From Thermogemmata fonticola (lineage in GTDB: Bacteria; Planctomycetota; Planctomycetia; Gemmatales; Gemmataceae), in contig NZ_JACEFB010000002.1 of assembly GCF_013694095.1 (NCBI RefSeq), positions 310,001 to 374,000 of the forward strand: a stretch of DNA of 64,000 bases, read 5' to 3'. Below, piece by piece: positions 4,464 through 25,011 of this stretch (positions are counted from its first letter, which is position 1; every line of letters begins with the position of its first letter). The notes beneath the pieces are model-generated. The model made no database searches. It had not been told where the DNA came from and was given only the letters and a program-made list of their open reading frames with translations. The translations under genes and the position numbers were made by a program.

Positions 4464-5588
4464 TCATTCTGGCAACGGACCAGGGACTAACGGTGGAGGC
4501 GGCAGCAGAGGACTTCCGTTTGAGGTAGAAGGTGCAACAGCCGGAGAGTTGGCCGGTCTTGCCGGTTCAAGTCCTGGAGGCATCGATGGAGGCGGTTCTG
4601 GGGCTGAGCTGGAGGGTGCGGTTCCCAGTGGAGTTCCCGGTACGGAGGCAGGTGATGTTGCTGGAGGCGAAGTTGCTGGAGAAGGTGTAGGATTGCCCGC
4701 TGGCGTCGAGCGAGCGGGTGGGGTAATCTCCAGCACGCGCCAACGCGAGGGCGCAGAGCGAGAAACCGGTGAGTGATTTGCGTTAGTCGGTGGTGCTGTG
4801 GATTCTCCCCCGAAGCGAAAGACCCCCATTCCCGGCCCTGTCGGGGATTGCGGTCGGGGTTGATAGGGGCCAGCAGCGGCAACATCCGAGATGCTTCCAC
4901 TCGCCGCCCCAAGGATCAGGCGTGTTTCCGGGGCATAAATCGGAAAGCCTCCCCCCTCCGGTTCGTAACGCACTCGCAGGCGGATATGGGTCACATCCGG
5001 ACGATACGTCGGCCAAGGGAGGAAGATCACGTAGCATTCTCCGAAGCGTTCATCGAGGGTTCGGAGGTTTTTCAGTACATCCTTTTTGAACTCCCATCGT
5101 TCCGGCGTCAGAGGAGGGACTCCAGGAGGCCGTGGAGTTTCGTCGATCAAGTCCACGATAAGGTTCCCGTTGGCAACCGCCGGTTTCGCCTCGGCGGTGT
5201 AAAGGAACACTTGGCCGGCGAGACCGGGTTGCATAGCACCACCGGCCGCGGGATTTGGCAGATACTCGATCTTATTCCGCCAAGCGGTAGCCACCTCTGC
5301 CACCGGCTGGGCTTTTTCTCGGCCCAAGAGTTTACTCACGCCAGACCAGGGTTTGCTGCTCCTGTGGACAGGAGTGGTAGGGACTGTGGGGTCTAAGGCG
5401 CTGCCCGCGCTTTGGCTTGTCGAGAAATTGCCGGCGGGTTGAATGGGAGCCGATGGTGGCGTTGGAGCCGCTATCGGGGGCACCCGGTGGTCGTTGGTCT
5501 TCCAGCTCTCTAAGGTGGTACAACCTGTGGCTAACCCAACCCACGCAGGAAGAACACACCACCGGATCAGTGGCCGAACGGATTCCAT
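4464..5588 (-). CDS. Lipoprotein at the end of the secretion cluster
   Basis: A 374-residue protein with a lipoprotein signal: a short basic start, a hydrophobic core and a lipobox LATGC with the cysteine near residue 23. The middle (about residues 95-230) is a folded-looking domain containing ERFGECYVIFLPWPTYRPD and RLRVRYEPEGGG. The last ~100 residues are rich in Pro, Ser and Ala and probably disordered. Its start overlaps the end of gspD by 22 bases, so the two are probably translationally coupled. I do not recognise the family. From position and predicted lipidation it could be a secretin-associated protein, either a pilotin-like factor or a substitute for the absent GspC. That role is inference. 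Confidence 0.8.
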   Translation of the reverse strand: MESVRPLIRWCVLPAWVGLATGCTTLESWKTNDHRVPPIAAPTPPSAPIQPAGNFSTSQSAGSALDPTVPTTPVHRSSKPWSGVSKLLGREKAQPVAEVATAWRNKIEYLPNPAAGGAMQPGLAGQVFLYTAEAKPAVANGNLIVDLIDETPRPPGVPPLTPERWEFKKDVLKNLRTLDERFGECYVIFLPWPTYRPDVTHIRLRVRYEPEGGGFPIYAPETRLILGAASGSISDVAAAGPYQPRPQSPTGPGMGVFRFGGESTAPPTNANHSPVSRSAPSRWRVLEITPPARSTPAGNPTPSPATSPPATSPASVPGTPLGTAPSSSAPEPPPSMPPGLEPARPANSPAVAPSTSNGSPLLPPPPLVPGPLPE

Positions 5589-8500
5589 AGGCGACCCTCC
5601 TTGGTCCCGAAGAGGCGGCGTCGTGCTGGTTCTGCCGCAGATACAGTTGGCGGTGCAGCCCCAGCGGCGGCTCCTGGGGCTGGCTCCACCGCCGGAGGCA
5701 GCACCAATTGATACGGTTTTCCGGGCACCGGCATAACTCTGGACTGTGGGGGTGCTGCTACTTCTCCATTGCTATTTGCGGGATAACTCGGAGTGGCAGG
5801 GATTGCAGTGGGGGCAGAGGCATTCGTTGGGGGGGCGTTCCCAAGGGGCATACCCGTGGTGATCGTGGGCACAGTGACAGGCACTGCGAGAGTCGGCCCC
5901 GGCAGTTGGGGAACGGCAGGGAGGGGCGTCGGCGGCGGCAACAGAGCCTCTGGCTGAATCGTTGGTGTGGCGGGCTTAGTGGGCGTCGTTGAAGTGGAAG
6001 GTGAGGGAGCCGGAGAGGGAACCGGTGTCGGGGAAGGCAGAGGTTGAGTTCCTGGGGCGGGGTTTGCAGGGCTGGGATTTTCTGGCGCTGTCGGCACCAC
6101 CCGTGCCCCCTGCATAGCGGGACCGATAATGTCCGTGCCATGTCCATGTATGCGCTCAATATCTTGAACGCACCAGTTCATGCGTGCCGCTTCCTCCGCC
6201 AGCAGGCGGGCCTGGTCGGCTTCGTTGCGGACGATGTGGGGCGTCATGATGATGAGCACTTCGCGCCGCTGAACCTGATGTTGCCGGTAGCGGAACAAAG
6301 CCCCCACATAGGGGATGTCCTTGAGGAAGGGTAAACCATTTTCGATGCGGCTGTCCTGCTTGGTGATCAGCCCGCCGAGCACAATCGTTTCGCCATCGGC
6401 AGCCACGACTGTCGTTTGGACCGTCTGAATGTTGAAGGCTGGAGCCTGCAAGCCGCCGCCGAGACTGATCAGGTTCGGGCTGACACTGGAGACCTGCGGC
6501 TCGATCCGCATGATAATTTTGCCGTCCGGCGAAATGCGCGGGGTCACGCGCATGACCACGCCCACTTGGCGATAGGTGATGCCTTGCTGAGTCGTCAGGC
6601 CGGTGACGTTGACGTTGGTGGGCACCGGAAAATCCTGGCCCACCTGGATGAAGCCGACCTGGTTGTCCATGACTTGCACTTGGGGCCGGCTCAAGATTTC
6701 CACCCGGCCCTGGGCTTGCAAGGCTCGCAACACCACGTTTAGCGACTGGTTGGAGGCCGTGAAGATGAAGCCGCCGAACGACTGGGACCCAATCCGGCCA
6801 ACACCCAAATTCGACAGTCCCTGGAAACCCACGATGCCCGGTCCAGCAATGCCAGTTCCGAGGGGAGCAGTGGTGTTGAAGTTGAAGCCCGGCGTGCTCG
6901 GACCGCGCTGGAAGAGCACGGGGCTTTGCAAACCGGCTTCGATTCCAAATTCCATTGCGTTGTTCAGTTGCACATCCGCGATCATGACTTGGATCATGAC
7001 CTGGGGCGGCTGGGCATCCAAGCGTTCGATGATCCGCTTGATATCCTTGAACAGCCGCGGCGTGGCGCTGACCAGCAGCGTGTTGGAGACAGGTTCAGCG
7101 ACGAGAACCACGTCGCGTTGCAGGCGTTGGTAGGCGTCCAGGAAACTGCCGCCGCTGGTGGGCGTGGTGGCCGTCAGAACGTTGAGCGAGTCCACGATGA
7201 ACTGATTGACCGCATTTTGCACGTCGGCAGCAGCGGTGTTCTTGAGCTTGTAAACCTCGTAGTAGCGCTCCTCAGTCTCAGTGTCTTCGAGCCGAGCGAT
7301 GAGAGCTTCGATGAGGTCCATGTCGGTGCGCGAGCCGGCCACGATCAGCGAATTGGTGCGGTCATCGACGGTGAGGCGCAGGTCCACGAGCAAGGCGCCT
7401 TCCGCCACTTCTCCAGTGGGTGTGAGCAAGGGGCGGGGTTGGCCCGCTTGGAGCGCTCCTGCCGCACCGATGCCGCCCAAGCCGCCTAGCCCTCCAACGC
7501 CCACTTGCTGCTGCCCCGTGAACAACTGCCGGATCAGGTTAGCCATCAGCGAGGCTTGGGCCTTCTTCAACTGAAATACCTTGACGATCGATCGGGCCGC
7601 CGAGACCGTATCCAGCTCTTCGATCAACTTTTCGATCAAAGTCATCGTCTTGGCTGGAGCCGTAACGATGATGGCGTTGATTCGTGTGGAGGGAATAAGA
7701 TGCACATCGCTGAGCAGGCCGCTTTCAGCGACCAGCTTGCCATCCACGCTGGAGTACAAGCGCAGAGTGTGGCTTTTAGTCACCAGCCCGCCGCCGATCG
7801 CCGTGCCCACGGTGGGGACAAAGGTTTGCACCAAAGCTCCTTCCTGCTGGAGAGCGGCACCGCCGGGCTGCAGTGCAGCGAGTCCCGCACCGGGTTGCTG
7901 GGCTCCCAGGCCGCCCAGGCCGCCCAGGCCGCCCAGTCCGGCGGCTCCGCCGACTCCTCCGACCCCCAGCCCGCCTGCGGCACCACCCAAGCCTCCTAAC
8001 GCCCCCAAACCTCCGAGGGCGCCAAGCCCCCCGACTCCCCCAATACCTGTCGTCAAACCTGCTGTGCCCCCAGCAGCGGGTGCGACCGGCTGTTGGAACT
8101 GCGCTTGTACCAGCGGGTTGACCACATTGACGTTCAGCGCGTTACTGAGAACTTGGGCAATTTCCGAAGCGATACCGTTGCGGATGCGAATGACCCGCAC
8201 TTCCTGAATCGCCTGGGACTCGGAGGTGTCCAGGTCTTGAATGAGGCGTTCGATATCCTCCAAGTCCGCCCGCGGACCTTGCACATATACGGTATTAGTG
8301 GGAATGTCGAAGGTGACACGGAACTGGTTTTGTGTGATGGGGTCGCCGGGAAAGCGGGCGTTCCAGAACTGTTGCAATTGCAGAGCCACAATCTGAGCGG
8401 AAGCCTTCTTGAGACGGAAAGCGCGAGGGAAGACGGTGTCAGCATTCGGTCGGTCGATCCGGCGGATCTCCCGCAGAATGTCATTGAAGCGGGCCTGCGG

Positions 8501-11500
8501 AGCAGCCACCAGGATCGAGTTGAATCGGGGCAAGGCTAGGAAATAGATGCCGCGGTTCTGTTGCGGTTGCAAACCGGCTAGGCCCGGCAATCCTGCTACT
8601 CCACCGACTCCTGCGGCAGGTTGTTGGGCCAAATAAGTACCACCGGGACCAGCGACCAACACACGGGAGAATAGCGTGGTCAGCCAGTTGGCCACCGCAT
8701 TGCAGTCCTGATACTCCAACGGCACGACTTCCAACCGCGGTTGAGCGTCGCGGGAAATTTCCCGCAAGGTTTCAATCAAGTCCAGGACCAATTGCAGATC
8801 GGTGGCGTTGGTCGCCCGCAGGATGATGGCATTAAGTTCCGGCAGCGGAACAACAGTCACAGGGCCGCGGGGTGCCAGCTCTCCAGGAAGAGGCGCGGGT
8901 GGTACGGGCTGGCCGGGAGGGGATGGAGGTTGCATCGGTGGAGGTTGCATTCCTCCGGCGGCGAGGATCCCGCTAGGCCCCTGCACGCCTTGGGGTGCGG
9001 AGGCTGGTTCCGTTGCAACGGCGTGGTGAAGGGCTGAGGCAGGCCGCTCTTGTAACGTACCGCGTTGCCGGGTCTTGGGGGGGCCGTCGAGGAGGGGATC
9101 GTAAACTGGAAAGCCGGAGGCAGTGGACGCATGGCTCGCGGCTGATGAGGGTTGAGCGTTAGAGTCTGGCGAAGTGGTGCGGGATGGTTGATCGTGGGTG
9201 TTGGTGTTGAGGGCCGACGGGGCCTCCATGCCCCAGGAGTCAAAATTTCGGGGTCCCTCCTGCGGATCGGCGAGAGCCTGGCGCCCGCCACGTCCGCCTC
9301 CGCCTCGTCCTCCCCCTCCTCCGAAGCCTCCGCCGCCGAGTCCGCCTCGTCCTCCGCCGAAGCCGCCGCCCATCGCTGGAGCACCGAAGCCTCCGCCGAA
9401 GCCGCCGCCGAGGCCAGGTCCCCGTCCTCCTCCGAAGCCTCCGCCAAAGGGGGTACCGCCGAAGCCTCCGCCGAAGGGAGTACCGCCGAAGCCGCCACCG
9501 GCAAAGGGACTGCCGCCAAAACTACCGCCGGCAAACCCTCCTGGACCCCGTCCGCCGCCGAAGCCTCCCATGCCCCCGAAACCAGGCCGGCTTTGCTGGG
9601 GATTGATCCCTTGGATGGCGAGCACAGCCGCTTGGACTACATTGGGATCCAAATTCCCAAGCCGGACAAGTCGGGCTACGTCCGTGGTGCTCGTGGAAGC
9701 TCGATCGAGTTGCTCGACCAACGCCTTGATGTCCTTGAAGAGCGGCTCGGAACAATTCAGGATGAGGCTGTTGGTGCGGTCATCGACACTGACCGTCAGG
9801 GCAGGGGGCCGTTGGTTTTGCTGATTCCCTTGCGGCAGAGGAGCGAAGGGGAAGATCACGGGAGCTGTGGGTTGCCCGCCTCCCGAACTCATCGCTGAGC
9901 GGTAAACATCTCGGATGATTGTAGCCATTTCGGCGGCGTCGGCGTTTTTCACGGGAAGTATCCAGGTTTTCAAAGCCAGAGCGTCATCATCCGCTCCCCG
10001 GTCGATGTAGTTGGCTAGAAGACTTTCAATGGCCAACAGGTCCGCCGGGCTGGCTTTGACGACCACCAAGGCGTTGGAACTTTTGATGGCTACAACGCGA
10101 ATGCGATTTGGGTTGGTGCCCGCGGGGGTGGAGTCACCGCCTCCGCCGCCGAAGAGGCCGCCGAGTAGGCCCAGAGGACCGCCTCCGCCGCCTAACAGGC
10201 CGCCTAATCCGCCTCGCCCTCCACCAGGACCTCCCTGTTGCCGCCGCTGCGGGCCGTTGAAGATTTCCGTGATCTCTGCGGCAGCCTCCTCCGCCGATAC
10301 ATTCTTGAGCTTGATCACCTTGAACAAATTCTCCGTGGGCGGAGTTCCCACCGTGTAAGTTCGCATCAAGCCCGTTAGGATGTCCAAGGCCTCGGTGTCC
10401 TCGCTTTGGATGATGATGCGATTGCCGACCACCTGAATGATGACCGGTTTCCCACTCGTTCCTTTGGGCGGTGGAGTCTCGCCCTTTTTCGGCTCCACTT
10501 GGGTGTGGACATAGCGGTAATCACCGGCGGAAGTGTTGGAAGCGGCTTCGCGTTGGGGTGCTGCTTTTGTGGAGAACCCCGGTACTCCCTGGAGGGGGTT
10601 GATCCCTCCGCCGTCATTGCCGCTCTGCCGTTGACCTGGATAGGGATTACCGCCCGGACTGGGCACGGGCGCAGGGCTGGGGTTCCTCGGCGGATTGGGA
10701 GCGTTGGGATCGACCACGATAGCCGGTTTACCCAACTGCTGGAGCGTCTTCGCTAGATGTTCCGCCAAGATCGAAGCGCTGCCGTCCGGCAGGGTGAAAG
10801 AGCGGATGCGCGGATCGAGTTGTCCGCCCGGCCGTTCGCCAAGGTCCGCCAAGATTTTCTTGACATCGTTGATTTGCGCTGGAGTTCCCTTGACGAGCAG
10901 CCCCGGAGCGACTCCGGTGGTATGGGCCTCGACCGTTGGTCCCCCCGCGGTACCGGTGCTGGGATACAACTTGGCGACAGTCGCCGCCGTCGTCGTGGGG
11001 TCCAAGATGGTCAGAGGGATAAATTCCGTCGTCACCGTGGTTTCACCACCCTGAACTAGGCTCCGCATCTTCTCCATGATGATCAGATGTTCTTCAGGTG
11101 TGGCGGAGACGATCACTTCATTCGTTTGAGCCAAGGGGTAGATGCGGAGGGTGGGATGATCCGCTTGGAGGGTCTGCGCGATCGCCTGAGCAGTACCCGG
11201 AGGTACAGGATACTTCCGCAATTCCGGATCCCGAATGACCAATGGGGGTTGGAAGGGATCGCGTGGTTTGTCGAAGTCCTCGATGATCTTCTTCGCCAAT
11301 TGAATCTTTTCGGGCGGAGCGGTGATGGTCACCGAATTGGCCTTGGTGTCCACAGCGATCTGCACGGTTTTGACACGCCCAGCAGCCGGGGCGAAGGAGG
11401 AGCGGTCCGGTCCACCTCGGCGATCCCCACGTGGATCGAAGCCGCCGCCGAAGCGGGGATCGAATCCCCCCCAGCCGCCGCCGAAGCGCGGATCGAAACC

Positions 11501-12442
11501 CCCACTCCCGTAGCGCGGATCGTAGTAGGGGGGAGTCGTCGGAGTAGTTCCCGCGACGGTAACCTGAGCGTTATCGGACAGCAAGGTCTTCAGATGCTCG
11601 GCGACTTCCTGGGCCCGCTTGTACTTGCAGACGTGAGTGAGGATGTCTCCTTGGGACAGCTCTGTTTCCACTTTCTGTAGGGTTTCCAGGATGCGCTTGA
11701 TATTCCCCGCTGTGTCTAATACCACCAGGGCGTTGAGCTTAGATAGGCTCGAAACCATGCCGAAAGGAGAAAGCAGGCGCTGAACTTCGGGAGCGGTTTC
11801 CTCCACGGACAGAGTCTTGAGGGGGATGATCACTTGGACCAGTTCCGTCCGTCCACGGGTGTGCAATTCATTCAATTCGATCCGAGGGACCCAAGAAGCA
11901 TCGATCTTCTCATCCGAGGGATGGATATAGAAGCTGATTTGGCGGCGGATGAGGATAAAGCGCTGCTGGATCAGGGCTTCATTGATCAAGTCCACCACTT
12001 CGCCAATGGTGAACTTGCGATCCTTGGGAGGTTGTAAGGTGACGCTTCCCGTGGGGCGCACGGTCAGAATCGGGGTCAAACCGCTTTCTTTGGCGAACCA
12101 TTCCAGCACATCGTCCCAATGAGCATTCTTGAAGTTGACCGTAATGGTACGCTCGCTGCCTGAGAAAGAGGGTTTATCGGCGGGTTTGTCTTTGTCAGCC
12201 GGCTTATCAGGGGTCTTATCTGAGGGTGAACTGGTTCCCCCATTGGCAGCCTTGCTTCCCACTTCACCCGGTTTTCCCGGTGGAGTCATCGGCTTACCGA
12301 CGGGAGGCGAAGTTTGGGCTGCAAGATTGGCCGCGAACATCAGGCTGCCAATCGCCAACATCCACCCGCTCAGAAAGTGGCTGATGCCAAGGAACGGAGC
12401 ACGCCCATGATACGCTCCTGTAACGCTCAGGCGTGACGGCAT
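5567..12442 (-). CDS. gspD: Giant type II secretion secretin (GspD-like)
   Basis: A 2291-residue secretin, about three times the usual GspD length. It has an N-terminal signal sequence (about 1-43), a Pro/Lys linker, then an N0-like domain starting ERTITVNFKNAHWDDVLEWF (about 97-170). After that I count about thirteen NolW-like repeats with the pattern xNxLIVxA...I..LI..LD, for example TNSLILNCSEPLFKDIKAL and INAIIVTAPAKTMTLIEKL. The pore-forming secretin domain occupies about 1805-2075, with VEILSRPQVQVMDNQVGFIQ and ETIVLGGLITKQDSR. Gly-rich stretches lie near 734-767, 950-1055 and 1460-1527, and the tail (about 2110-2291) is Pro-rich. The ATG has a good GGGGGAAG site. It is expected to form the outer-membrane channel of the system encoded upstream. 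Confidence 0.93.
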   Translation of the reverse strand: MPSRLSVTGAYHGRAPFLGISHFLSGWMLAIGSLMFAANLAAQTSPPVGKPMTPPGKPGEVGSKAANGGTSSPSDKTPDKPADKDKPADKPSFSGSERTITVNFKNAHWDDVLEWFAKESGLTPILTVRPTGSVTLQPPKDRKFTIGEVVDLINEALIQQRFILIRRQISFYIHPSDEKIDASWVPRIELNELHTRGRTELVQVIIPLKTLSVEETAPEVQRLLSPFGMVSSLSKLNALVVLDTAGNIKRILETLQKVETELSQGDILTHVCKYKRAQEVAEHLKTLLSDNAQVTVAGTTPTTPPYYDPRYGSGGFDPRFGGGWGGFDPRFGGGFDPRGDRRGGPDRSSFAPAAGRVKTVQIAVDTKANSVTITAPPEKIQLAKKIIEDFDKPRDPFQPPLVIRDPELRKYPVPPGTAQAIAQTLQADHPTLRIYPLAQTNEVIVSATPEEHLIIMEKMRSLVQGGETTVTTEFIPLTILDPTTTAATVAKLYPSTGTAGGPTVEAHTTGVAPGLLVKGTPAQINDVKKILADLGERPGGQLDPRIRSFTLPDGSASILAEHLAKTLQQLGKPAIVVDPNAPNPPRNPSPAPVPSPGGNPYPGQRQSGNDGGGINPLQGVPGFSTKAAPQREAASNTSAGDYRYVHTQVEPKKGETPPPKGTSGKPVIIQVVGNRIIIQSEDTEALDILTGLMRTYTVGTPPTENLFKVIKLKNVSAEEAAAEITEIFNGPQRRQQGGPGGGRGGLGGLLGGGGGPLGLLGGLFGGGGGDSTPAGTNPNRIRVVAIKSSNALVVVKASPADLLAIESLLANYIDRGADDDALALKTWILPVKNADAAEMATIIRDVYRSAMSSGGGQPTAPVIFPFAPLPQGNQQNQRPPALTVSVDDRTNSLILNCSEPLFKDIKALVEQLDRASTSTTDVARLVRLGNLDPNVVQAAVLAIQGINPQQSRPGFGGMGGFGGGRGPGGFAGGSFGGSPFAGGGFGGTPFGGGFGGTPFGGGFGGGRGPGLGGGFGGGFGAPAMGGGFGGGRGGLGGGGFGGGGGRGGGGRGGRQALADPQEGPRNFDSWGMEAPSALNTNTHDQPSRTTSPDSNAQPSSAASHASTASGFPVYDPLLDGPPKTRQRGTLQERPASALHHAVATEPASAPQGVQGPSGILAAGGMQPPPMQPPSPPGQPVPPAPLPGELAPRGPVTVVPLPELNAIILRATNATDLQLVLDLIETLREISRDAQPRLEVVPLEYQDCNAVANWLTTLFSRVLVAGPGGTYLAQQPAAGVGGVAGLPGLAGLQPQQNRGIYFLALPRFNSILVAAPQARFNDILREIRRIDRPNADTVFPRAFRLKKASAQIVALQLQQFWNARFPGDPITQNQFRVTFDIPTNTVYVQGPRADLEDIERLIQDLDTSESQAIQEVRVIRIRNGIASEIAQVLSNALNVNVVNPLVQAQFQQPVAPAAGGTAGLTTGIGGVGGLGALGGLGALGGLGGAAGGLGVGGVGGAAGLGGLGGLGGLGAQQPGAGLAALQPGGAALQQEGALVQTFVPTVGTAIGGGLVTKSHTLRLYSSVDGKLVAESGLLSDVHLIPSTRINAIIVTAPAKTMTLIEKLIEELDTVSAARSIVKVFQLKKAQASLMANLIRQLFTGQQQVGVGGLGGLGGIGAAGALQAGQPRPLLTPTGEVAEGALLVDLRLTVDDRTNSLIVAGSRTDMDLIEALIARLEDTETEERYYEVYKLKNTAAADVQNAVNQFIVDSLNVLTATTPTSGGSFLDAYQRLQRDVVLVAEPVSNTLLVSATPRLFKDIKRIIERLDAQPPQVMIQVMIADVQLNNAMEFGIEAGLQSPVLFQRGPSTPGFNFNTTAPLGTGIAGPGIVGFQGLSNLGVGRIGSQSFGGFIFTASNQSLNVVLRALQAQGRVEILSRPQVQVMDNQVGFIQVGQDFPVPTNVNVTGLTTQQGITYRQVGVVMRVTPRISPDGKIIMRIEPQVSSVSPNLISLGGGLQAPAFNIQTVQTTVVAADGETIVLGGLITKQDSRIENGLPFLKDIPYVGALFRYRQHQVQRREVLIIMTPHIVRNEADQARLLAEEAARMNWCVQDIERIHGHGTDIIGPAMQGARVVPTAPENPSPANPAPGTQPLPSPTPVPSPAPSPSTSTTPTKPATPTIQPEALLPPPTPLPAVPQLPGPTLAVPVTVPTITTGMPLGNAPPTNASAPTAIPATPSYPANSNGEVAAPPQSRVMPVPGKPYQLVLPPAVEPAPGAAAGAAPPTVSAAEPARRRLFGTKEGRLWNPFGH

Positions 12443-12899: not shown

Positions 12900-14594
12900 C
12901 TACTGCTGATCCTCCCGCAGGCGATGGAGGACTACGGTACCGGAAGCTGCAATACGGCGGAGGATGTGATCGATTTCTTCGGCTTTCAGTCGGCCTTTGT
13001 CCAGGGCCTCTTGCAGGGACTTGCCGTGCTCCCAGCGGTAGTAGGCCGGACGAGGAATCAGGGTGGCGGGGTTGCCGGTGAGGGCAGCCAGAGGGTCCGC
13101 AGGTCCTTGGCGTGCGCCCGCACGTCCGCCGCCGAAACCGGGCCGGCCACCCCATGCGCCTCCGTTGCGCTCGTTGCCAACCTTCGCCGGGGGGTTCGGC
13201 TCGCAGAGAATGATCCCGTTTTCGTCGATGGCAATGACCCGGAATGTCCGTTGAGTAGCAGATGTCCCCTCATCCGAGATGACGAGGTAGCCCGGCGGAT
13301 GGGTCCGCCGATAGTTGGCGTCCTCCTTCATTGATTTGGCAGTCCAAGGAATCTCCTTACGCACCGTGATGGTGGTATTTGTAGCGCTGATCAGATAGCG
13401 GAAGTTATTAAAGTGATCCTTAATGATGGCCTGGGCGGTACCATCTGAAGCAGTGGAAACAATCGGCAGCGTGATAAGCCAGGCAATCTCCGGCTTCGGA
13501 GGTGGAGGCGGAGTAACCGGGGCTTCCACGCTCACGCGGAAAGATTTCTTGACCTCGACCCCTTCGGAAGAGACGGCGGTGACGGTGACTGTGGAAGTTG
13601 CAGAGTCCGGTGTGTCTTCCCCCACAGGGGGCAACGTAATGGTCCAGTTCTCGGCATCCACTTGGAGAGCATCTTCTGGAATGAGCGAGCCGGTGACGCT
13701 GACGGAAATCTCCGCCTCTTCGGACCCATCCCCACTCAACCGGATTCGGACCACGTAGGGCTTGCCATCCCGCCGCATGGTGACGTCTGGTAACGGTCCG
13801 ATGGCGAAAGGCACCGGTTTTCGCGGTACATAAGGCGGCAAGATGCCATAGAAGATGTCCCGCTGCACAATATAGGTGTAATTCCTCGGCGGGGAGGCGA
13901 GGACGGGTTCGGCACGGATCCACTGTAGCAAGCGGGTTTGTTCCGGGTTCTTTTGGAGTAGTTGCGGGCCGAGATTGCTAGCTACCGCAGCGACCACATT
14001 CGTCACAGGGAAAAGTGATGTCCGTGCCTTGACACCATCTACGGCGATGGCATCACTGGTCAGAGTCACCTTCAAGCCATTGCGGCTGGGGTCTCGCTCA
14101 TTCCTTTCGATCTTGAGAGTGCTGATCTGGTGCAACAGATCAAGCTGGTAGTACGCGTAGAGGAAATCCACCAATTGCCAAATGTTGATGTTTTCCATGC
14201 TGATGACGAACCGGTGCTGTTTATAGGCGGGGCGTTTGGGAGCGATATCGGGGATGATGGGGGGGCGCGCCTGGACGATGCCGACGGATGAGAATTTGAA
14301 ATCGCGAATGCCCGACTGCAAGAGGAGGCGTTCCAGCAATTGGGAATACTGGGCTTGGGCAATGGTATCGTCAGGGGGCAGACTTTGCCGTTGGATCAGT
14401 GCGACGGCGGGCCGGTCTTTGATCATTTGCATCAGTTGCAATTCGAGATCGTCGATGTCTTTTTCGAGCATGCGGCGCATTTGAGCCGTGTTCTGCAACG
14501 GCGTATAGATGAAAAAGTAGCCACCGACGCCGGCAATCGCGGCGCTGATCAGTCCTATCAGAGCCAAAGCGGAACGGAATTCACGGGGAGTCAT
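12900..14594 (-). CDS. gspM: GspM/PilO-like inner-membrane assembly protein, oversized
   Basis: 564 residues. A single transmembrane helix near the N-terminus (ALIGLISAAIAGVGGYFFIY, about 11-30) is followed by a coiled-coil-like region (about 35-62) and a segment reminiscent of the PilO/GspM ferredoxin-like fold (LLERLLLQSGIRDFKFSSVG, and LVDFLYAYYQLDLLHQISTL). The later part contains an Ig-like stretch with TSTVTVTAVSSEG (about 330-360), then a proline spacer and a C-terminal domain with many beta strands. GspM is normally about 160 residues, so most of this protein is extra. Assignment as the M component rests on topology and position after the L-like gene and before the secretin. In that role it would link the cytoplasmic ATPase/L assembly to the periplasm. 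Confidence 0.7.
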   Translation of the reverse strand: MTPREFRSALALIGLISAAIAGVGGYFFIYTPLQNTAQMRRMLEKDIDDLELQLMQMIKDRPAVALIQRQSLPPDDTIAQAQYSQLLERLLLQSGIRDFKFSSVGIVQARPPIIPDIAPKRPAYKQHRFVISMENINIWQLVDFLYAYYQLDLLHQISTLKIERNERDPSRNGLKVTLTSDAIAVDGVKARTSLFPVTNVVAAVASNLGPQLLQKNPEQTRLLQWIRAEPVLASPPRNYTYIVQRDIFYGILPPYVPRKPVPFAIGPLPDVTMRRDGKPYVVRIRLSGDGSEEAEISVSVTGSLIPEDALQVDAENWTITLPPVGEDTPDSATSTVTVTAVSSEGVEVKKSFRVSVEAPVTPPPPPKPEIAWLITLPIVSTASDGTAQAIIKDHFNNFRYLISATNTTITVRKEIPWTAKSMKEDANYRRTHPPGYLVISDEGTSATQRTFRVIAIDENGIILCEPNPPAKVGNERNGGAWGGRPGFGGGRAGARQGPADPLAALTGNPATLIPRPAYYRWEHGKSLQEALDKGRLKAEEIDHILRRIAASGTVVLHRLREDQQ

Positions 14595-14816: not shown

Positions 14817-16424
14817 CTAGCGGTTTTTCCCCTTACCTTCTTTCCCGTCCTTGGTGGAAGGGGAGGGGGGATAGCCCCGGCGATCAGGGGGTGTAAACTT
14901 TTCGGGGGCGCGGGTGTACTCCTGTGGGGGCCGGGCATTGACGTTAGCCGAAATCGCGTAGTCGGAGTTGGGGGCTATCGTCGTCTGGCGGACACCGGCA
15001 TAGTATTTGGCTTCACCGTAATGCAACTCGCTGTAGAGGTGAGTGGCGGCCTGGTTGTCCGGGGCCTTGAATTTCAATTCCACTTTGGCCTGGTGCGGTT
15101 GTTTTCCCGTTTTGCTATCTGGGGGAATGGCGCTGGCTAGGAATTGGGTGGCATGAACTCCTTTACCGTGGGGGAAGCGATCGCTCCAGTCGTAAAGCTC
15201 GTCGAGCCAGTTCACGCCGCGGGCCTGCCATTTTCGGACGGCGTCCAGGCGCTTGGCATCCGGTTCCAACAGTTTGACTTCGTTTTCCAGGTCCTGTTTA
15301 CGACGTTGAAGCTGGACGATTTCTCGCTCGGCATCGTGGACCTTCCAGTAACCGAAGACACCACCGAGGAAGAGGAGCAGAGCAGCGAGGCTGGCCACAG
15401 CAACGAGGCGGACTTTGTAGGGATCGCGGCTTGATTGCGGTTGGCGCGGCTGGACGAAATTGATGGCGAGGGAACGGGAAGCCTGGGCCACGAGTAAGCC
15501 GACCAAGGCGGCGCAGCGGCCCCGCAGACTTTGATGCAATTCGAGCACGAATCCCTGTAGGGGATCATGGGCATGCACGGGTAGAGGCAGGGCGGCGCGC
15601 AGGCGAGGAGCGTATCGGCCATCCGCTTCGTAGACATGCAAGGCACCTAGGGGATATTGAGAGCCTACGCTAGTGTAGAGGGTCAGATTTCGACGAACTT
15701 CTGCAAGCAAAGTGCTTTCGGAGGCGAAGACGGGGGCGGGTAGGTCCCGGGTGAACTGGACTTCCCCATTGCGGACTACTGTAAACTCCCCCCCGACGGG
15801 GCTGAGGAGCAAGGTCGCAACGGCAGCGCCTGGAGTTTCCGGCTGAGGAGCCAAGCCGTTGGCCTGGGCACGTCCCAATTCTGCCGCTACGGCATAAGGC
15901 CGTGGCGTGACGGCAAGCAGTTTTAGACCCGCTGCCGAACACATCTTCTGAATGGCGCTGAGCAGGTCCTTACGAAGGATCACTGCCATGCTTCGCCGTT
16001 CACCTTCGGGGACGCCATTGGACAGCGGCGTGTAGTCGATTACCACATCGTCGGGAGATTCCGACAGCTCGCGGATGGCTTGATATTTGACCACGTTGGG
16101 TTCGTCAGTGGGCGGGACGGCGGGATAGCGCAGCTCTTTGAGGATGACCCGTCCCCGGCCGACTGCCACCAATACAGGAGCGGGAGCGATCCCCGCGTCC
16201 TTGAGCCTTTGACGGAGTTGCTCTCCAAGGGCCGTAGCGGTGTCAAGTGTCAAGGGGGGAGGGGGAGTACCCTCCGCTTCGGTCCACGTGAGCACTTGAT
16301 CAACGCGGACTTGCCCAAGTCGGCTAACGCTTCCCGCTGCCAACAGAATCCCATCTGGCGTCAAATCGAGTGCAAGATAACGAGCCACGGTCAAGGTCTC
16401 TCGCAAAAGGGTGATTGGTGTCAA
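14817..16424 (-). CDS. gspL: GspL-like protein (PilM-PilN fusion)
   Basis: 535 residues. The first ~330 form an actin-like PilM/GspL cytoplasmic domain beginning ARYLALDLTPDGILLAAGSV, with PAPVLVAVGRGRVILKELRY. A single transmembrane helix (LVAVASLAALLLFLGGVFGY, about 338-358) comes next, then a coiled coil (EREIVQLQRRKQDLENEVKL) and a periplasmic PilN-like domain. This arrangement matches GspL, which recruits the GspE ATPase to the inner membrane. The C-terminus is basic and low-complexity. It is separated by 398 bases from gspK upstream and by 222 bases from the gspM-like gene downstream, so the cluster is looser here than in the pseudopilin block. Confidence 0.85.
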   Translation of the reverse strand: MTPITLLRETLTVARYLALDLTPDGILLAAGSVSRLGQVRVDQVLTWTEAEGTPPPPLTLDTATALGEQLRQRLKDAGIAPAPVLVAVGRGRVILKELRYPAVPPTDEPNVVKYQAIRELSESPDDVVIDYTPLSNGVPEGERRSMAVILRKDLLSAIQKMCSAAGLKLLAVTPRPYAVAAELGRAQANGLAPQPETPGAAVATLLLSPVGGEFTVVRNGEVQFTRDLPAPVFASESTLLAEVRRNLTLYTSVGSQYPLGALHVYEADGRYAPRLRAALPLPVHAHDPLQGFVLELHQSLRGRCAALVGLLVAQASRSLAINFVQPRQPQSSRDPYKVRLVAVASLAALLLFLGGVFGYWKVHDAEREIVQLQRRKQDLENEVKLLEPDAKRLDAVRKWQARGVNWLDELYDWSDRFPHGKGVHATQFLASAIPPDSKTGKQPHQAKVELKFKAPDNQAATHLYSELHYGEAKYYAGVRQTTIAPNSDYAISANVNARPPQEYTRAPEKFTPPDRRGYPPSPSTKDGKEGKGKNR

Positions 16425-16822: not shown

Positions 16823-18460
16823 CTAAGGATTAATGCTCCGCTGGGGGGAATAAGCGCGGGGTTGGTCCAAATCGCCCAAGTCGCGGAAGTAGAGAATCCG
16901 GGGGGCGCCGAGATTGCTGTCAATGACGGCTTCCACCCGTGCGGTGGGACCGCCCTCGGCGAAGTAGCCAACGACCTCGACCCTGTACACCATACTGGTG
17001 CCGGTAATGAGTCGTTCCAGATTCCGGAATTTGCTCACCGACAAGCCGGCTTCGGTCAGGAGCCAAGCCCCCGTCATCGCTTCCAAAGAAAAAGGCACGA
17101 TGTTGTCGCGCACGGCCAAGATGTTATCCACGTCGGTTTCCGTCAGGCCGGGTAATCCTAGTAGGGCTTCCCGTGAAGCAGTGTTGACATTGAGACGTGG
17201 GATCATCTCCACCGCTTCGCGCGTTGAAATCTTGTCGAGAAGAACGGGGAGTAACTCAGCCCGGCGGGCCGGATCGTTCAGGGGCGAGAAATAGACGAGG
17301 GATTGAGGAGGATTCGAGCGGCTGTTGCGCTGCAAGACGATACCCGTATTGATCAAGTCCAGGACCGAATTGATCGCCCGCCCACTGGTGGCAATTGTGG
17401 CCAAACGGGCTTCGACCGCAGAGATCAAGTCCTCAGCGCCGACCGGTACGTACACTTCCTGTTGTTGTTTACCCATTCCCATTCCCCTGCCCATCCCTTT
17501 GTTTTGGGACTGAATTTGGCCGTCGTCTGTGACGCGGAGCAGGTTATTCGATCCGAAGATTTTGACAGCGACAATGTAGGCGGCCATGTCTGCGTCGAGG
17601 CCGGAATTGAGCAGGGCTTGATAGATGCCGACGATGTCGTCCCCGTTAATCCAAATGCGGAGAATCCCGGAGGAATCGACATTGACTTCGCGGCCATAGA
17701 CAGTCAGGTAGTCGCTCCAGCCCCGATCCACCCACCCGGCATTTTCGTCATCGATACCGTTGCGGTTGCGGTCGGTGCCGTAGAGCAATTGGGGTGTGAC
17801 ACCTTTGACCAGAAGCAGTTCATCGAGAGTATTGAGGGGGCCGTTTTTGGCCGAGTAAGGCTGGGCCAGGCCGCGGTAGTAAGCACTCTCGGCACCATTG
17901 GGGCGGGTGTCTTCGTTGCTGTCCACCCAGTCTACGATGGCGTCCGCAATCTCTGGCGTCATGTTGGGCAGCTTGAGCAACGCGTTGTAGAGCGTCTCAC
18001 CGGTGGGATCGAGCGCAATTAGAGCATTGATGTTGATTTTACCTCCTTCATCTGCCAGTCCGAAGCGCTGTTGATACCCCCCTCCCGTTAGCGGAGCCAC
18101 ATGGATGATGGAAAAGTAAGCTTGTTTACCGCTAGGGTTGGTGGGATCGAGCGGGACGGGAATATCCTGGAAGTAGGCGGGATTGTCATAGGGGTTGCCT
18201 ACATCGAGAGCCAGCAACTCGGGGTCGGCCAATAACGCTGCTGCGTAGTGAACGCCAGAGGCGGCAGCGGCACGTACTTGAGCATAATCCGCACTGCGCA
18301 CCCCGGCTCGCAATTCGGACACCATCGCATCGCTGAAGCGGTAGGCGACGAGAGATAACACCAGGATCACTATGAGCACCGCGATCAGAACGTATCCCGG
18401 TCGCGGATCGCGGCCGATCCCGCGCAGCCGACCTTGGTTTCCTAAGGGATGAGGTGTCAT
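16823..18460 (-). CDS. gspK: Type II secretion minor pseudopilin GspK
   Basis: 545 residues. The prepilin leader ends in PRPG before YVLIAVLIVILVLSLVAYRF. The +5 position is Ala rather than Glu, and a missing Glu5 is a known feature of GspK. The large globular part contains GLADEGGKININAL, a GspK hallmark, and two helix-hairpin-helix-like segments (LLKLPNMTPEIADAIVDWVD and LLGLPGLTETDVDNILAVRD). GspK sits at the tip of the pseudopilus with GspI and GspJ. At 545 residues it is longer than the usual ~330, mainly through insertions including a Gly/Met/Lys stretch near residue 325. Its start codon overlaps the gspJ stop in an ATGA arrangement. Confidence 0.92.
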   Translation of the reverse strand: MTPHPLGNQGRLRGIGRDPRPGYVLIAVLIVILVLSLVAYRFSDAMVSELRAGVRSADYAQVRAAAASGVHYAAALLADPELLALDVGNPYDNPAYFQDIPVPLDPTNPSGKQAYFSIIHVAPLTGGGYQQRFGLADEGGKININALIALDPTGETLYNALLKLPNMTPEIADAIVDWVDSNEDTRPNGAESAYYRGLAQPYSAKNGPLNTLDELLLVKGVTPQLLYGTDRNRNGIDDENAGWVDRGWSDYLTVYGREVNVDSSGILRIWINGDDIVGIYQALLNSGLDADMAAYIVAVKIFGSNNLLRVTDDGQIQSQNKGMGRGMGMGKQQQEVYVPVGAEDLISAVEARLATIATSGRAINSVLDLINTGIVLQRNSRSNPPQSLVYFSPLNDPARRAELLPVLLDKISTREAVEMIPRLNVNTASREALLGLPGLTETDVDNILAVRDNIVPFSLEAMTGAWLLTEAGLSVSKFRNLERLITGTSMVYRVEVVGYFAEGGPTARVEAVIDSNLGAPRILYFRDLGDLDQPRAYSPQRSINP

Positions 18461-19842
18461 CGTCCACCTCCGCCGAAGCCGCCGCGTCCGCCGCTGATTC
18501 CACCTCCTGAACCCCCGCCCATCCCGCCTGCTCCCCCTCCTCCAATGCCCCCTCCGCCGCCTCCGATGCTCCCTCTTCCTCCCGCTCCTCCGCCGCTTCC
18601 ACCGCCGGAGCCACCGACGCCGCCTTTCCCTCCACCTATGCCGCTTCGTCCTCCGCCGCTTCCACCGCCAGAGCCGCCGACACCGCCTTTCCCTCCGCCG
18701 ATATTGCTGCCTCCGCTTTTGCCAGTACCTCCAGTACCGCCAGTGCCACCGCTGGTTTCTGTTCCTGTGGTATCGCCACCGCTGCCATCATCCGGTTTTG
18801 ACTCGACTCCTGAAGGTACGACAGGATCGATCAATGACACAGTGGCGTGGCCAGGGGCTGTCCGGATCGGAATGATTTGGCTGACAGTGCGGTAGATTGG
18901 CTCCTGGGGACGCTGGGGGTCCGTCAATTCAAAGGTCAGGGTGACTCGTACCGCCCGTGGTGGACCAGCGATGCCGCTTCCCGTGGCGCTCATGCCGGAA
19001 CCATCCCACGTGGTGCTCCAGGCGGTGCCGTCGTAGTATTCGAACTGAACGTCCACGATATGGTCGGCCACAAGAGCGGCCTCTTCGTTTTCCCGGTTCG
19101 GGTAGGTCGAATTCCCGATCTGATCTGCGGTGACCCACGGCCGCTCCTCCCGACACAATCCTCCCGTGGCGCTGCGCCAGTACACGATGCGCCGTAGATC
19201 GGAGGATTGCTGACTTTCCGCCACGGCGGTGCCAAGAAGCACGCCCGGTGTGCTCAGCGATGGGGGAACTTGGCTGGCAAAAATCACGAGGCGGGGGGGA
19301 TCATCATCGTAACCGTAGATGCCGGCGTGGAACGGCAGGGTCGGCGCAGGCGCGGAAGACGTGGTCGTACCCGTCATGGTGGGGTCCACCATCCCGGTGT
19401 TCGAGTCCCCGCCGCCTGTATCGGTGCTGCCGCTGGTATCTCCGGTGGTGCCGCTGCCGTCGGTTGTCCCGCTGGTTCCGCCACTACTGAGGCTAGTTCC
19501 GCTGGCGCTACTGAGAGCTTTGGGCGGCAAGGGTCCAAGCGTCTGCGCCAAATCCAAGGCAATGCGGTTGAACACCCCGCGTGCCAGGTCTTCCGTCTGA
19601 GCCATTTCCCGGCTGATCTGGGTTTGAGCCAGCGTCATGTGGAAAGCCAAGTACAAGCCGCCGAGAAGGAACGAGCCGATAAGAGTCGCTACGAGCAATT
19701 CCAGCAAGGTGTAAGCACACCGTTGCTTCCTGGGGACGGGAACCGCGCCAATTCTCCGAGCGAGCAAACGCCAGTTTTCGCCTGAGAAGGGGAGGGGCAC
19801 AAGCGGGTAAGAATGGGCCGGCACGATGGCAAACTGTCTCAT
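18457..19842 (-). CDS. gspJ: Minor pseudopilin GspJ with Gly-rich tail
   Basis: 461 residues. The prepilin segment is RKQRCA then YTLLELLVATLIGSFLLGGL (about 42-66), preceded by an unusually long leader of about 42 residues; the start has a good GGGAGG site. A GspJ-like domain follows (DLARGVFNRIALDLAQTLGP; RRIVYWRSATGGLCREERPW; VQFEYYDGTAW). The final ~110 residues are almost entirely Gly, Ser and Lys, including a near-perfect 21-residue tandem repeat. The residue before cleavage is Ala, not the usual Gly. It overlaps gspI and gspK by 4 bases on each side, so the three are translationally coupled. Confidence 0.88.
   Translation of the reverse strand: MRQFAIVPAHSYPLVPLPFSGENWRLLARRIGAVPVPRKQRCAYTLLELLVATLIGSFLLGGLYLAFHMTLAQTQISREMAQTEDLARGVFNRIALDLAQTLGPLPPKALSSASGTSLSSGGTSGTTDGSGTTGDTSGSTDTGGGDSNTGMVDPTMTGTTTSSAPAPTLPFHAGIYGYDDDPPRLVIFASQVPPSLSTPGVLLGTAVAESQQSSDLRRIVYWRSATGGLCREERPWVTADQIGNSTYPNRENEEAALVADHIVDVQFEYYDGTAWSTTWDGSGMSATGSGIAGPPRAVRVTLTFELTDPQRPQEPIYRTVSQIIPIRTAPGHATVSLIDPVVPSGVESKPDDGSGGDTTGTETSGGTGGTGGTGKSGGSNIGGGKGGVGGSGGGSGGGRSGIGGGKGGVGGSGGGSGGGAGGRGSIGGGGGGIGGGGAGGMGGGSGGGISGGRGGFGGGGR
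18590..18715. repeat. 63-bp tandem repeat inside gspJ
   Basis: Two adjacent 63-bp units (18590-18652 and 18653-18715) are nearly identical, each starting CCGCCGCTTCCACCGCC. They encode the repeated 21-residue Gly-rich block KGGVGGSGGGSGGG plus spacer in the GspJ tail. The length is a multiple of three, so copy-number change would keep the reading frame. Confidence 0.75.
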
Positions 19843-20321
19843 GAACCACCTCCCATCGAGGAACCGCTGGCGGGATCGGGTCGCGTGGCTTCACCCGCCG
19901 TTCCCCACACGCTGGGGTCCAGCATCAATTGACTCAGGGTGATCGTGACGGTTTGTCCCTTGACCTCTCGGCTGACACTCACACTGACCAGATACAGATT
20001 CGGGATGTCATAGTTCTGGACGGTTAGGGTCCAGCTCCAGTTGGCATCGTCTCCGTCAAAGGTGCCGCTGCTGCTTTCCAGGGGGATCGCTCCGCATTCG
20101 ACTTCGGCCAGTTTGGCCTGGGCTAATCGTGTTCCGCGGCTCTGGTGGCGTGCTTCCAGCTCCAGATCGGCTCCCATGTCCACCAAGCGGGCGATCGCCA
20201 CTAGGGCGGTGAGGAAGATGGCCAGGGCCAGAAGCACTTCAATCAAGGACAGGCCAGCTCGTTTCCTCCCCCTGAGACGAGGTTGCAAGATTTCACAGGT
20301 TCTCGTGGCTGCGGACTTCAT
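19839..20321 (-). CDS. gspI: Minor pseudopilin GspI
   Basis: 160 residues. The leader ends KRAG before LSLIEVLLALAIFLTALVAI, with Gly at -1 and Glu at +5 as expected. The downstream segment (QAKLAEVECGAIPLESSSG, WSWTLTVQN, YLVSVSVSREVKGQTVTITL) matches the GspI pattern of LAxxKLxE followed by a short beta domain. GspI nucleates the pseudopilus tip complex with GspJ and GspK. It overlaps gspH and gspJ by 4 bases on each side, which places it in the tight H-I-J-K block. The C-terminal Gly/Ser extension is short. Confidence 0.9.
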   Translation of the reverse strand: MKSAATRTCEILQPRLRGRKRAGLSLIEVLLALAIFLTALVAIARLVDMGADLELEARHQSRGTRLAQAKLAEVECGAIPLESSSGTFDGDDANWSWTLTVQNYDIPNLYLVSVSVSREVKGQTVTITLSQLMLDPSVWGTAGEATRPDPASGSSMGGGS

Positions 20322-20866
20322 GGCCGCCCCCCGCCAGCAGCAGCACCCGGCGGAGTCCGCACCACCGCTGCTGTGCCGGTAATCCCGCGTATCCGTACAT
20401 AAATGGGGGACTGATTCCCTTCACGTACCTCAACGAGCACCTGATCTTCCTTGCAGGTGCCGTCCGGCTTGAGCGTGGCGATGGTGATCCAATCTCCCTC
20501 CTGCACGACTTCGGAGTCCCCGTCCGTTAGGACATGGACGGTGGCTTTGTCCAGTCGGTCCTCGGTGACGCTGGCGTTGAAGGCGGGGGGATCATCTGCT
20601 GGCAAAGCGGCAAACTCCGTCCCGTCCGGCGCGACACGTAGACGGCTGCCGTCACTGGAAACAGCCACACGATACCACTGCCCCCGTTCCATGGCCTTGG
20701 CACGTGCATCCGCAATGCGTGCTCGAACCAAATCGGCGGCTGCCTTCTGACGGGTGTTGGCGTAATTCCCCTCCAGCGTCAGTGTAACTGCCATTCCCAG
20801 GATGAGAATGACAGCCAGTACGACCAGCAACTCCAGGAGAGTGTAACCCTTGCGAGGGATTACCAT
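20318..20866 (-). CDS. gspH: Minor pseudopilin GspH
   Basis: About 182 residues from the ATG at 20864-20866, which puts a short basic leader MVIPRKG directly before YTLLELLVVLAVILILGMAV. An in-frame start 63 bases further upstream (20929) would give an implausibly long leader. Gly is at -1 and Glu at +5. The following KAAADLVRARIADARAKAME and WYRVAVSSDGSRLRVAPDG match the GspH/FimT family, the minor pseudopilin that joins the tip to the GspG shaft. The stop overlaps the gspI start by 4 bases. Confidence 0.88.
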   Translation of the reverse strand: MVIPRKGYTLLELLVVLAVILILGMAVTLTLEGNYANTRQKAAADLVRARIADARAKAMERGQWYRVAVSSDGSRLRVAPDGTEFAALPADDPPAFNASVTEDRLDKATVHVLTDGDSEVVQEGDWITIATLKPDGTCKEDQVLVEVREGNQSPIYVRIRGITGTAAVVRTPPGAAAGGGRP

Positions 20867-20983
20867 AGTTTTTCTTCCGGCACGAGCAGATACGGTCAGG
20901 CGAAGGAACCGCGCAGCCTTGGCTGGCACATTTTCCGAGGTCGTTTTCCCGGACGTTTTCCCTCGGTGTGAATAACACTCGTT

Positions 20984-21421
20984 TTAGCGCAGCGGCCATT
21001 GGAGCGGCGGTTTGTTTATGTTGTGCTGGGGACAGAAGACCACGGGCCGCTCCTTGTAATTCCCCTCCACTTCATCTGTCGTTCGAACCAGTTGCCAGTA
21101 ATACCGTGTGCCCCAAGGGGAAATCAGGCCTTGCGTTCCCTGTTCCAGATAGGGGGCGATGAGGGCAAGTCCCTGCTCCCCTTCCGGCGGCCACTCGCCA
21201 TGCTTGAGATAGTACGTCTTGAGCGCTTGTTCGATCGCCCGCATGTCGTTTTGAGCACGCCCCTCTTTCGCCTCCTCAAGATAGCGGAAGAGGGCAATGC
21301 TGGCGGCCGAGGCCAGAATCACCAGAATGGCCACCACGATAAGTACTTCCAAAAGTGTGAAAGCTCCGCGAAGGTGGTGTCTTCGATTCGTGATGTCTCG
21401 CGTCACCGTGCGTAGCACCAT
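20984..21421 (-). CDS. gspG: Major pseudopilin GspG
   Basis: 145 residues, the normal GspG size. The leader RHHLRGA precedes FTLLEVLIVVAILVILASAA, with Ala at -1 and Glu at +5. The family pattern continues with RAQNDMRAIEQALKTYYLKH and GEWPPEGEQGL, and a C-terminal SPWGTRYYWQL resembling the GspG DPWGxxY loop. GspG polymerises into the pseudopilus shaft that pushes substrates through the secretin. AGGAG lies a suitable distance before the ATG. The gene stands 242 bases after gspF and 117 bases before gspH. Confidence 0.93.
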   Translation of the reverse strand: MVLRTVTRDITNRRHHLRGAFTLLEVLIVVAILVILASAASIALFRYLEEAKEGRAQNDMRAIEQALKTYYLKHGEWPPEGEQGLALIAPYLEQGTQGLISPWGTRYYWQLVRTTDEVEGNYKERPVVFCPQHNINKPPLQWPLR

Positions 21422-21663: not shown

Positions 21664-22887
21664 TCAGCCCACCGTGCTGCCCATCTTGAAGACCGGCAGA
21701 AGCAGACCCATGACGATGAGCAACGTTACCCCGGCCATGACCAAGAGCATGATTGGTTCAAGCAATTTGACCATCAATTCCAGATTGCGGCTGGTGCGCT
21801 TTTCCAAACCATCGGCAATATCCACGAGCACCGTTTCTAGGCTGTTGGATTCCTCAGCGATGGTAATCATTTCGACGACATCGGGGGGAAAATAACCGCA
21901 GCGCCGCAGAGGATCGGCTAGTTTTTGGCCTGCAGTGACGTTTTCCGCGCTTTTTTCGATCGCTTGAGCCAACACGCGGTTGCCCGTCGAGTCCTTAGCA
22001 ATGTTCAAGGCTTTGAGAATCGGAATACCGTTGTGCAGCAGCGTTCCCAGAATCCGGCAGAAGCGGGACAGCGCGAGAGAAAGAAAGATCGGTCCGAAAA
22101 GTGGCAGGCGGACTTTGAGACGGTCCACGATCAGGCGCCCATTTTCTGTCTTGGCCCAACGGCGGAATAGCACTAAAGCGGTCAGCGCCACGCCGAGCAC
22201 GAGCCACCAGTAATTTTGCAGGAAATGACTGAAGGCCATCAAATACACCGTCAAAGTGGGGAGTTCCCCTTTTTCTTCGAGCTTTTCAAAAATTTTCGCG
22301 AACTTGGGAACGAAGAAGATGACCAGGATGTTGAGGACAGCAAAGCCGGCGACCGCCAGGAACACCGGATAGGCCAGCGCGCCGACGACTTTGGCTTTGA
22401 GATCCTCCTGATGTTCCACGAAATTGGCGATGCGCTTGAGGACGTCCTCTAGGAAACCACCCTCTTGGCCAGCCCGGACCATACCCACGACCAACTCGCT
22501 GAAGACACGGGGGTGAAAGGCCATAGCTTGCGCCAGTCCTGTGCCATCGGCTACCCGGCTGCGCACATCCCGGATCACAGCCTGGAGCGTGGGATTGGTG
22601 CTCTGCTTTTCCAATAGCTCTAGGGAGCGGAGCAGCGGCACGCCGGAACGGAGGAGGTCCGCCATTTGAGAATAGAAGGCCGCCAGTTGCCGCCCTTTGA
22701 CCCGCCGTGCCCAAAGCCCGCCCGTACTCCCCGGACCAGTCGCTTGAGTTTTGGCCAGAGCGATGCGCAGGGGAAATAGACCCCGGCTATCCAGAATTGC
22801 AGCCACTTCCCGCTCGCTGTTGGCTGTCACAATTCCTGTAGCCTTACTGCCGGTCCGGGCTAATGCTTCATAAGTGAAATCAGGCAT
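21664..22887 (-). CDS. gspF: Type II secretion platform protein GspF
   Basis: 407 residues, typical for GspF. It starts MPDFTYEALARTGSKATGIV, the usual GspF opening, and has two repeats of the T2SSF domain: FYSQMADLLRSGVPLLRSLE in the first and FCRILGTLLHNGIPILKALN in the second. Three transmembrane segments are visible near residues 168-190, 215-240 and 375-400. GspF is the inner-membrane platform that couples the GspE motor to pseudopilus assembly. The gene follows gspE by about 90 bases. Its Shine-Dalgarno is weak. Confidence 0.95.
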   Translation of the reverse strand: MPDFTYEALARTGSKATGIVTANSEREVAAILDSRGLFPLRIALAKTQATGPGSTGGLWARRVKGRQLAAFYSQMADLLRSGVPLLRSLELLEKQSTNPTLQAVIRDVRSRVADGTGLAQAMAFHPRVFSELVVGMVRAGQEGGFLEDVLKRIANFVEHQEDLKAKVVGALAYPVFLAVAGFAVLNILVIFFVPKFAKIFEKLEEKGELPTLTVYLMAFSHFLQNYWWLVLGVALTALVLFRRWAKTENGRLIVDRLKVRLPLFGPIFLSLALSRFCRILGTLLHNGIPILKALNIAKDSTGNRVLAQAIEKSAENVTAGQKLADPLRRCGYFPPDVVEMITIAEESNSLETVLVDIADGLEKRTSRNLELMVKLLEPIMLLVMAGVTLLIVMGLLLPVFKMGSTVG

Positions 22888-24810: not shown

Positions 24811-25011
24811 GTTACCCTCAAACTCACGCTCTTCCGCGTCCGAGAAGCCGATTGTCACTGCCGACTTGGGCCGATCCCGGCCCGTTTGCGAATCCCATCT
24901 CCGAAGACAACTGCCATCCCGGCTGGGGTGACCCTCTGCCGTCGCGGTTATTCCGCATCTTCCCCCTCGAAACGCTGGGGCTGTCTTTCAGGAATATACC
25001 GCTAGCGTCTC

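Follow-up and report, generated by a model that had tools for sequence, protein, structure and literature searches.

How far can the periplasmic part of a bacterial secretin be extended? The periplasmic length of secretins is usually treated as nearly fixed, and the canonical GspD of type II secretion has three N1-type domains, or rings. The question is raised anew by a 64,000-nucleotide stretch of the genome of Thermogemmata fonticola (contig NZ_JACEFB010000002.1, positions 310,001 to 374,000; here called the window), in which one secretin open reading frame (ORF) was found to encode an N0 domain, then 13 N1-type domains across residues 201-1810 and, C-terminally, a barrel. The product is a member of the GspD family with 13 N1-type domains, and the best explanation of its architecture, which we consider fairly probable, is that it forms an elongated type II secretion system (T2SS) conduit, its rings stacked so as to span the periplasm of the planctomycete.

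The ORF scores 484.9 bits against the NCBIfam GspD equivalog model TIGR02517 (cut-off 351.35), and falls below the cut-offs of the PilQ model TIGR02515 (245.2 bits against 284.35) and of the MshL and type III SctC models. Pfam Secretin (PF00263) matches residues 1907-2072 at 3.7e-48, with barrel strands in the AlphaFold2 model, and Secretin_N matches at 2.8e-95 over 10 separate stretches. The closest solved structures, from PDB matches, are PulD (6hcg) and GspD (5wq7), and Foldseek searches with the models returned the N0-N1-N2 regions of XcpQ and GspD together with whole GspD chains. The N0 domain expected at the N-terminus of a GspD is recognised by fold, not by Pfam sequence models, and the gene shares an operon with GspE, GspF and the pseudopilins G to K. 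Since 13 N1-type domains were counted in place of three, the protein is a GspD variant rather than a typical member; its predicted role, by analogy, is that of a ring channel secreting folded proteins.

The count of 13 is drawn from the agreement of Pfam, an independent hidden Markov model (HMM) of the repeat, profile-profile comparison, orthologue alignment and AlphaFold2/Foldseek, the boundaries of the N1-type domains having been placed by hand. When Pfam was applied segment by segment, N1, N2, N6, N7, N9 and N10 exceeded the curated cut-off, weaker matches were obtained for N3 (1.3e-4), N8 (0.023) and N4 (0.13), and no match was returned for N0 or N5. The repeat HMM detected 12 domains in the window protein and 12-13 in many relatives; a version built exclusively from proteins of another class recovered all of the window domains except N5, with N1 marginal (E 0.09). 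Profile-profile comparison linked most of the N1-type domains at at least 90%, with fewer strong partners for N1, N3 and N8. N5 is the weakest by sequence (best profile-profile match 88%, to N8), and it is counted as a domain on the strength of its orthologues, which the repeat HMM matches at the same place, and of the AlphaFold2 model, which predicts a beta-alpha-beta-beta-alpha topology for it. Chance or low complexity was rejected as a source of the matches, 200 shuffles and the reversed protein having given just 6 domains over 201 sequences (E<0.01).

A preliminary description of this DNA had read the ORF as a secretin with about thirteen N-domain repeats lying at about residues 240-1810. 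Its secretin identity is borne out by Pfam and by the NCBIfam GspD cut-off, and the number thirteen by Pfam, the HMM, orthologues and the fold model; the domain-counting profile search that it proposed returned not merely three or four N-domains. The end of the array at residue 1810 also stands, while the start has to be moved to about residue 201, and to its inventory of repeats must be added the N0 domain found by the fold model.

AlphaFold2 was run on two halves of the monomer. The model of residues 90-718 contains N0 and five beta-alpha-beta-beta-alpha units, with the loops of N2 and N5 disordered, and that of residues 1120-2125 contains the second half of N8, then N9-N13, then the barrel. 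Large Gly/Pro-rich loops, predicted to be disordered, are placed in N2, N5, N6, N8, N11 and N12, and in several domains they lie between alpha-1 and beta-2.

The number of domains is conserved across the order Gemmatales. The Gemmataceae setting assumed in the preliminary description is supported by the nearest named match to the genome (Gemmataceae SKYG125, 94% identical) and by orthologue comparison, and the comparison of repeat number among relatives that it suggested showed N1-N13 in order in 34 of 36 Gemmatales proteins, the other two having 11, without N2 and N3; these counts come from position-specific models built on the same set and are descriptive. Such models were used because a generic HMM, even when retrained with every locus, undercounted the domains with long loops. 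Identity of individual domains to those of the window protein averages about 34-53% across relatives, and the persistence of the same count despite such divergence makes the domain number look selected, not the product of a slippery repeat.

Zavarzinella formosa, which had appeared to be an exception with 2 domains, was rejected as such: N0-N13 are all present, spread over several frames. In its records (L055/L094) about 3.8 kb lies between the two halves of N6, through either sequencing error or a real insertion. Two records titled Candidatus Kuenenia and Bacteroidales (L090 and L080) match Gemmatales secretins, and their titles look wrong.

Beyond this order the arrays reach other lengths. 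Orthologues in other Planctomycetia are mostly ORFs of about 1100-1500 residues with about 6-9 detected N-domains. Two genera of one family have 29-30 N-domains in one-to-one correspondence, with about 57% identity between genera at matched positions against 25% within the protein. Another class of the phylum has ORFs of some 3200-6170 residues with 32 to about 62 detected N-domains, single-contig genomes being among those that encode them. These expanded secretins (29-62 domains in L154-L157 and L166-L181; largest subunit 6165 residues, about 640 kDa), like L049/L177, have the same domain types as the window protein and belong to the same GspD-type clade, and L156 has a PilM-like gene two genes upstream, as at the window locus; unlike the window protein, they have 29-62 domains, mostly compact and without Gly-rich loops. 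In five proteins compared, the repeats of each share on average 25-31% pairwise identity, and some of these proteins contain recently duplicated blocks that are up to 87% identical.

In a tree of pore domains the 13-domain proteins form one clade (support 100/99), and the 30-domain family stands apart from the 32-62-domain class, from which it follows that expansion to 29 or more domains took place at least twice. The arrays grew by tandem duplication on at least two occasions. Position-specific models match N0-N1 and N5-N13 in order in a 30-domain protein, whose added domains fall between these two blocks. When Gemmatales are compared with other Planctomycetia, conservation is highest in N10-N13, and the N-terminal domains diverge. 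An array that gains domains internally and retains its two ends is what one would expect if a conduit had been lengthened.

We infer the stacking of rings, the oligomeric state, the length of the tube, the substrate path and the reason for the length as follows. Tandem duplication of an N1-type domain would have lengthened the periplasmic vestibule of GspD to 13 such domains plus N0. Most likely, some 12-15 subunits would assemble in a ring, as in other secretins, with one ring per N-domain stacked as a tube, the pore-side domains joining the barrel and N0 facing the inner-membrane platform. Fourteen rings, at an assumed 2.5-4 nm each, would extend roughly 35-56 nm below the barrel, far enough to bridge a wide periplasm, and the Gly/Pro-rich loops may line the lumen or contact the cell wall or substrates. 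By analogy with the rings of Thermus PilQ (PMC4463427, PMC5745081), extra N-domains can reasonably be expected to lengthen the channel. The fit of a long secretin to an unusually wide periplasm is plausible, given that the planctomycete periplasm is reported to be capable of great enlargement (PMC5394234).

Several observations weigh against such a stacked conduit. The pTM (predicted template modelling) scores of the two monomer-half models are 0.37 and 0.34, so that stacking between domains is not predicted by them. The very long loops in N5 and N8 mean that these two may not make ordinary rings. Relatives with about 62 domains would have tubes of 150 nm or more, which are hard to picture and weaken the equation of one domain with one ring. 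In model T2SSs, GspC binds N0; no match to GspC (PF11356) was obtained in this genome at E<=0.1, although a diverged GspC is possible, and contact with the inner membrane must therefore either differ or have gone unrecognised.

Some of the same observations would suit a protein in which ring formation is confined to the pore-proximal domains, about N10-N13, the others serving as a flexible tether or scaffold that holds substrates, the cell wall or the inner membrane. The large disordered loops, the stronger conservation of N10-N13 and the implausible length of tubes made from about 62 domains all favour this idea; yet the number of domains in a tether should vary, and it is kept at 13 in 34 of 36 Gemmatales proteins and at 29-30, one-to-one, in two genera, while the N-domains of known secretins form stacked rings. 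We regard a tether as unlikely. A misassembled or decaying, functionless repeat might also be suspected in a long repetitive gene from a 61-contig assembly, but the repeats are diverged and lie in a single open frame, the same domain order recurs in orthologues from dozens of independent genomes, and some expanded relatives come from genomes assembled as a single contig; an artefact, contradicted by these orthologues and single-contig genomes, was rejected, and hardly any likelihood is left to it.

The secretin could instead, or in addition, serve a surface fibre, as the channel of the fibre-bearing crateriform complexes by which the cytoplasmic membrane of Planctomycetes is pinned to the cell wall. 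The relevant passages of PMC5394234 describe crateriform complexes that connect the two membranes and carry 12 nm fibres in P. limnophila, and fibres associated with large craters in G. obscuriglobus; they name no component. A PilM-like platform gene at the locus and PilT-family proteins elsewhere in the genome are in keeping with such a function, but the operon has GspG, GspH-like, GspI, GspJ and GspK pseudopilins and no PilT, and the PilT-family genes lie far from gspD or on other contigs, all of which leaves the fibre role decidedly improbable. A wider proposal, which we offer tentatively and with more doubt than belief, is that giant secretins with 13 to about 62 N-domains arose more than once in Planctomycetota and form continuous tubes, from tens of nanometres to over 150 nm long, that take T2SS cargo or a fibre across a very wide periplasm. 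The number of domains would then serve each clade as a ruler of its envelope width, and the crateriform structures might be these very complexes.

Returning to the elongated T2SS conduit, GspD, PulD and XcpQ (PDB 6hcg, 5wq7, 5mp2) have N0, N1-type domains, a barrel and a GspE-K operon in common with the window locus, and the window secretin differs from them in its 13 N1-type domains, its Gly/Pro-rich loops, its Pro-rich C-terminal tail and the lack of a detected GspC. The longest secretin tail in the open literature searched is that of Thermus thermophilus PilQ, whose six N-rings were called 'exceptionally long' (PMC5745081) and lie within a channel of about 35 nm in a periplasm of about 70 nm (PMC4463427, PMC5745081). 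PilQ and the window secretin both have extra N-domains, those of PilQ reaching deep into a wide periplasm; PilQ, however, serves type IV pili and DNA uptake and has domains N0-N5, whereas the window secretin has N0 and 13 further domains and lies in a T2SS operon. A search of the open-licence PMC literature, with subscription papers, preprints and InterPro outside its scope, found no description of expanded N-domain secretins in Planctomycetes. The Planctopirus operon Plim_0410-0401 (PMC10632474) may correspond to this locus, provided that it includes this secretin.

Gemmataceae and their relatives may thus build very long secretion tubes. The surprise lies mainly in the conserved number and in how far the phylum goes beyond 13, a range to about 62 domains that the preliminary description could not have seen from the sequence of the window alone. 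Domain numbers rise in steps that are conserved within clades, from the canonical few to about 6-9, then 13, 30 and 62, which makes the relation of ring number to envelope width directly testable; the secretin is a molecular candidate for keeping the machine on both membranes despite a variable and enlarged planctomycete periplasm.

Table 1. Features of the secretin gene and its operon (positions in the window; res, residues of the secretin)
Feature	Position	Strand	Basis and remarks
374-aa conserved gene	4464..5588	-	overlaps gspD end; N-terminus like lipoprotein signal (..GLATGC)
GspD-type secretin gene	5567..12442	-	one open frame, 2291 aa, ~238 kDa; Pfam, NCBIfam
Pro/Ala-rich C-terminal tail	5570..6112	-	res 2111-2291; read from sequence
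Secretin pore domain	6113..7012	-	res 1811-2110; Pfam Secretin, PDB 6hcg/5wq7, Foldseek
N1-type domain 13	7013..7267	-	res 1726-1810; adjoins pore; partly aligned with PulD/GspD last N-domain
N1-type domain 12	7283..7591	-	res 1618-1720; Pfam, orthologues, AlphaFold2
N1-type domain 11	7607..8209	-	res 1412-1612; 142-aa Gly-rich loop; orthologues, AlphaFold2
N1-type domain 10	8225..8431	-	res 1338-1406; Pfam, orthologues, AlphaFold2
N1-type domain 9	8450..8740	-	res 1235-1331; Pfam, orthologues, AlphaFold2
N1-type domain 8	8759..9685	-	res 920-1228; divided by 249-aa Gly/Pro-rich loop; Pfam, orthologues, profile-profile
N1-type domain 7	9701..9979	-	res 822-914; Pfam, orthologues, profile-profile
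N1-type domain 6	10001..10333	-	res 704-814; Gly-rich loop; Pfam, orthologues, profile-profile
N1-type domain 5	10352..10813	-	res 544-697; 96-aa disordered loop; orthologues, AlphaFold2, profile match to N8
N1-type domain 4	10835..11035	-	res 470-536; orthologues, AlphaFold2; Pfam weak
N1-type domain 3	11051..11227	-	res 406-464; hand placement, Pfam, orthologues, AlphaFold2
N1-type domain 2	11267..11644	-	res 267-392; 68-aa G/P-rich disordered loop; Pfam, orthologues, AlphaFold2
N1-type domain 1	11663..11842	-	res 201-260; hand placement, Pfam, orthologues, AlphaFold2
N0 domain	11867..12154	-	res 97-192; AlphaFold2; Foldseek to N0 of enterotoxigenic Escherichia coli GspD 4jtm, TM 0.79 on target
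Probable signal peptide region	12317..12442	-	res 1-42; hydrophobic stretch then AAQ; putative, read from sequence
564-aa gene	12900..14594	-	hydrophobic segment at N-terminus; resembles GspM/PilO in position only, putative role
PilM/GspL-like inner-membrane platform gene	14817..16424	-	weak Pfam PilM_2; conserved upstream of gspD
GspK	16823..18460	-	Pfam T2SSK; NCBIfam GspK under its cut-off
GspJ	18457..19842	-	Pfam
GspI-like pseudopilin	19839..20321	-	Pfam, under cut-off
GspH-like pseudopilin (N_methyl)	20318..20929	-	Pfam N_methyl; named by position
GspG, major pseudopilin	20984..21421	-	Pfam; NCBIfam under its cut-off
GspF	21664..22887	-	Pfam
GspE ATPase	22978..24858	-	Pfam

Within the operon, the matches to GspI and GspL lie under the Pfam cut-offs and GspH takes its name from position. 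The secretin could alternatively start at an ATG at residue 28. The 374-aa gene, which has homologues at 60 of the searched loci and no family match in Pfam or NCBIfam, is a candidate pilotin in view of its lipoprotein-like N-terminus.

Three more secretins are encoded in the genome, without expanded N-domain arrays. On contig C1 of the same genome, the ORF at 6729-10964 (L058) encodes a secretin of 1411 aa that Secretin_N matches only weakly; it belongs to a separate clade of secretins of 1400-1970 residues present in many of the genomes compared, and the gene beside it resembles a MacB/LolCE permease. Elsewhere in the window, a 2253-aa ORF (37003-43764, minus strand) carries the UvrA interaction domain and the UvrA DNA-binding domain twice each, and has the look of two UvrA copies fused in tandem.
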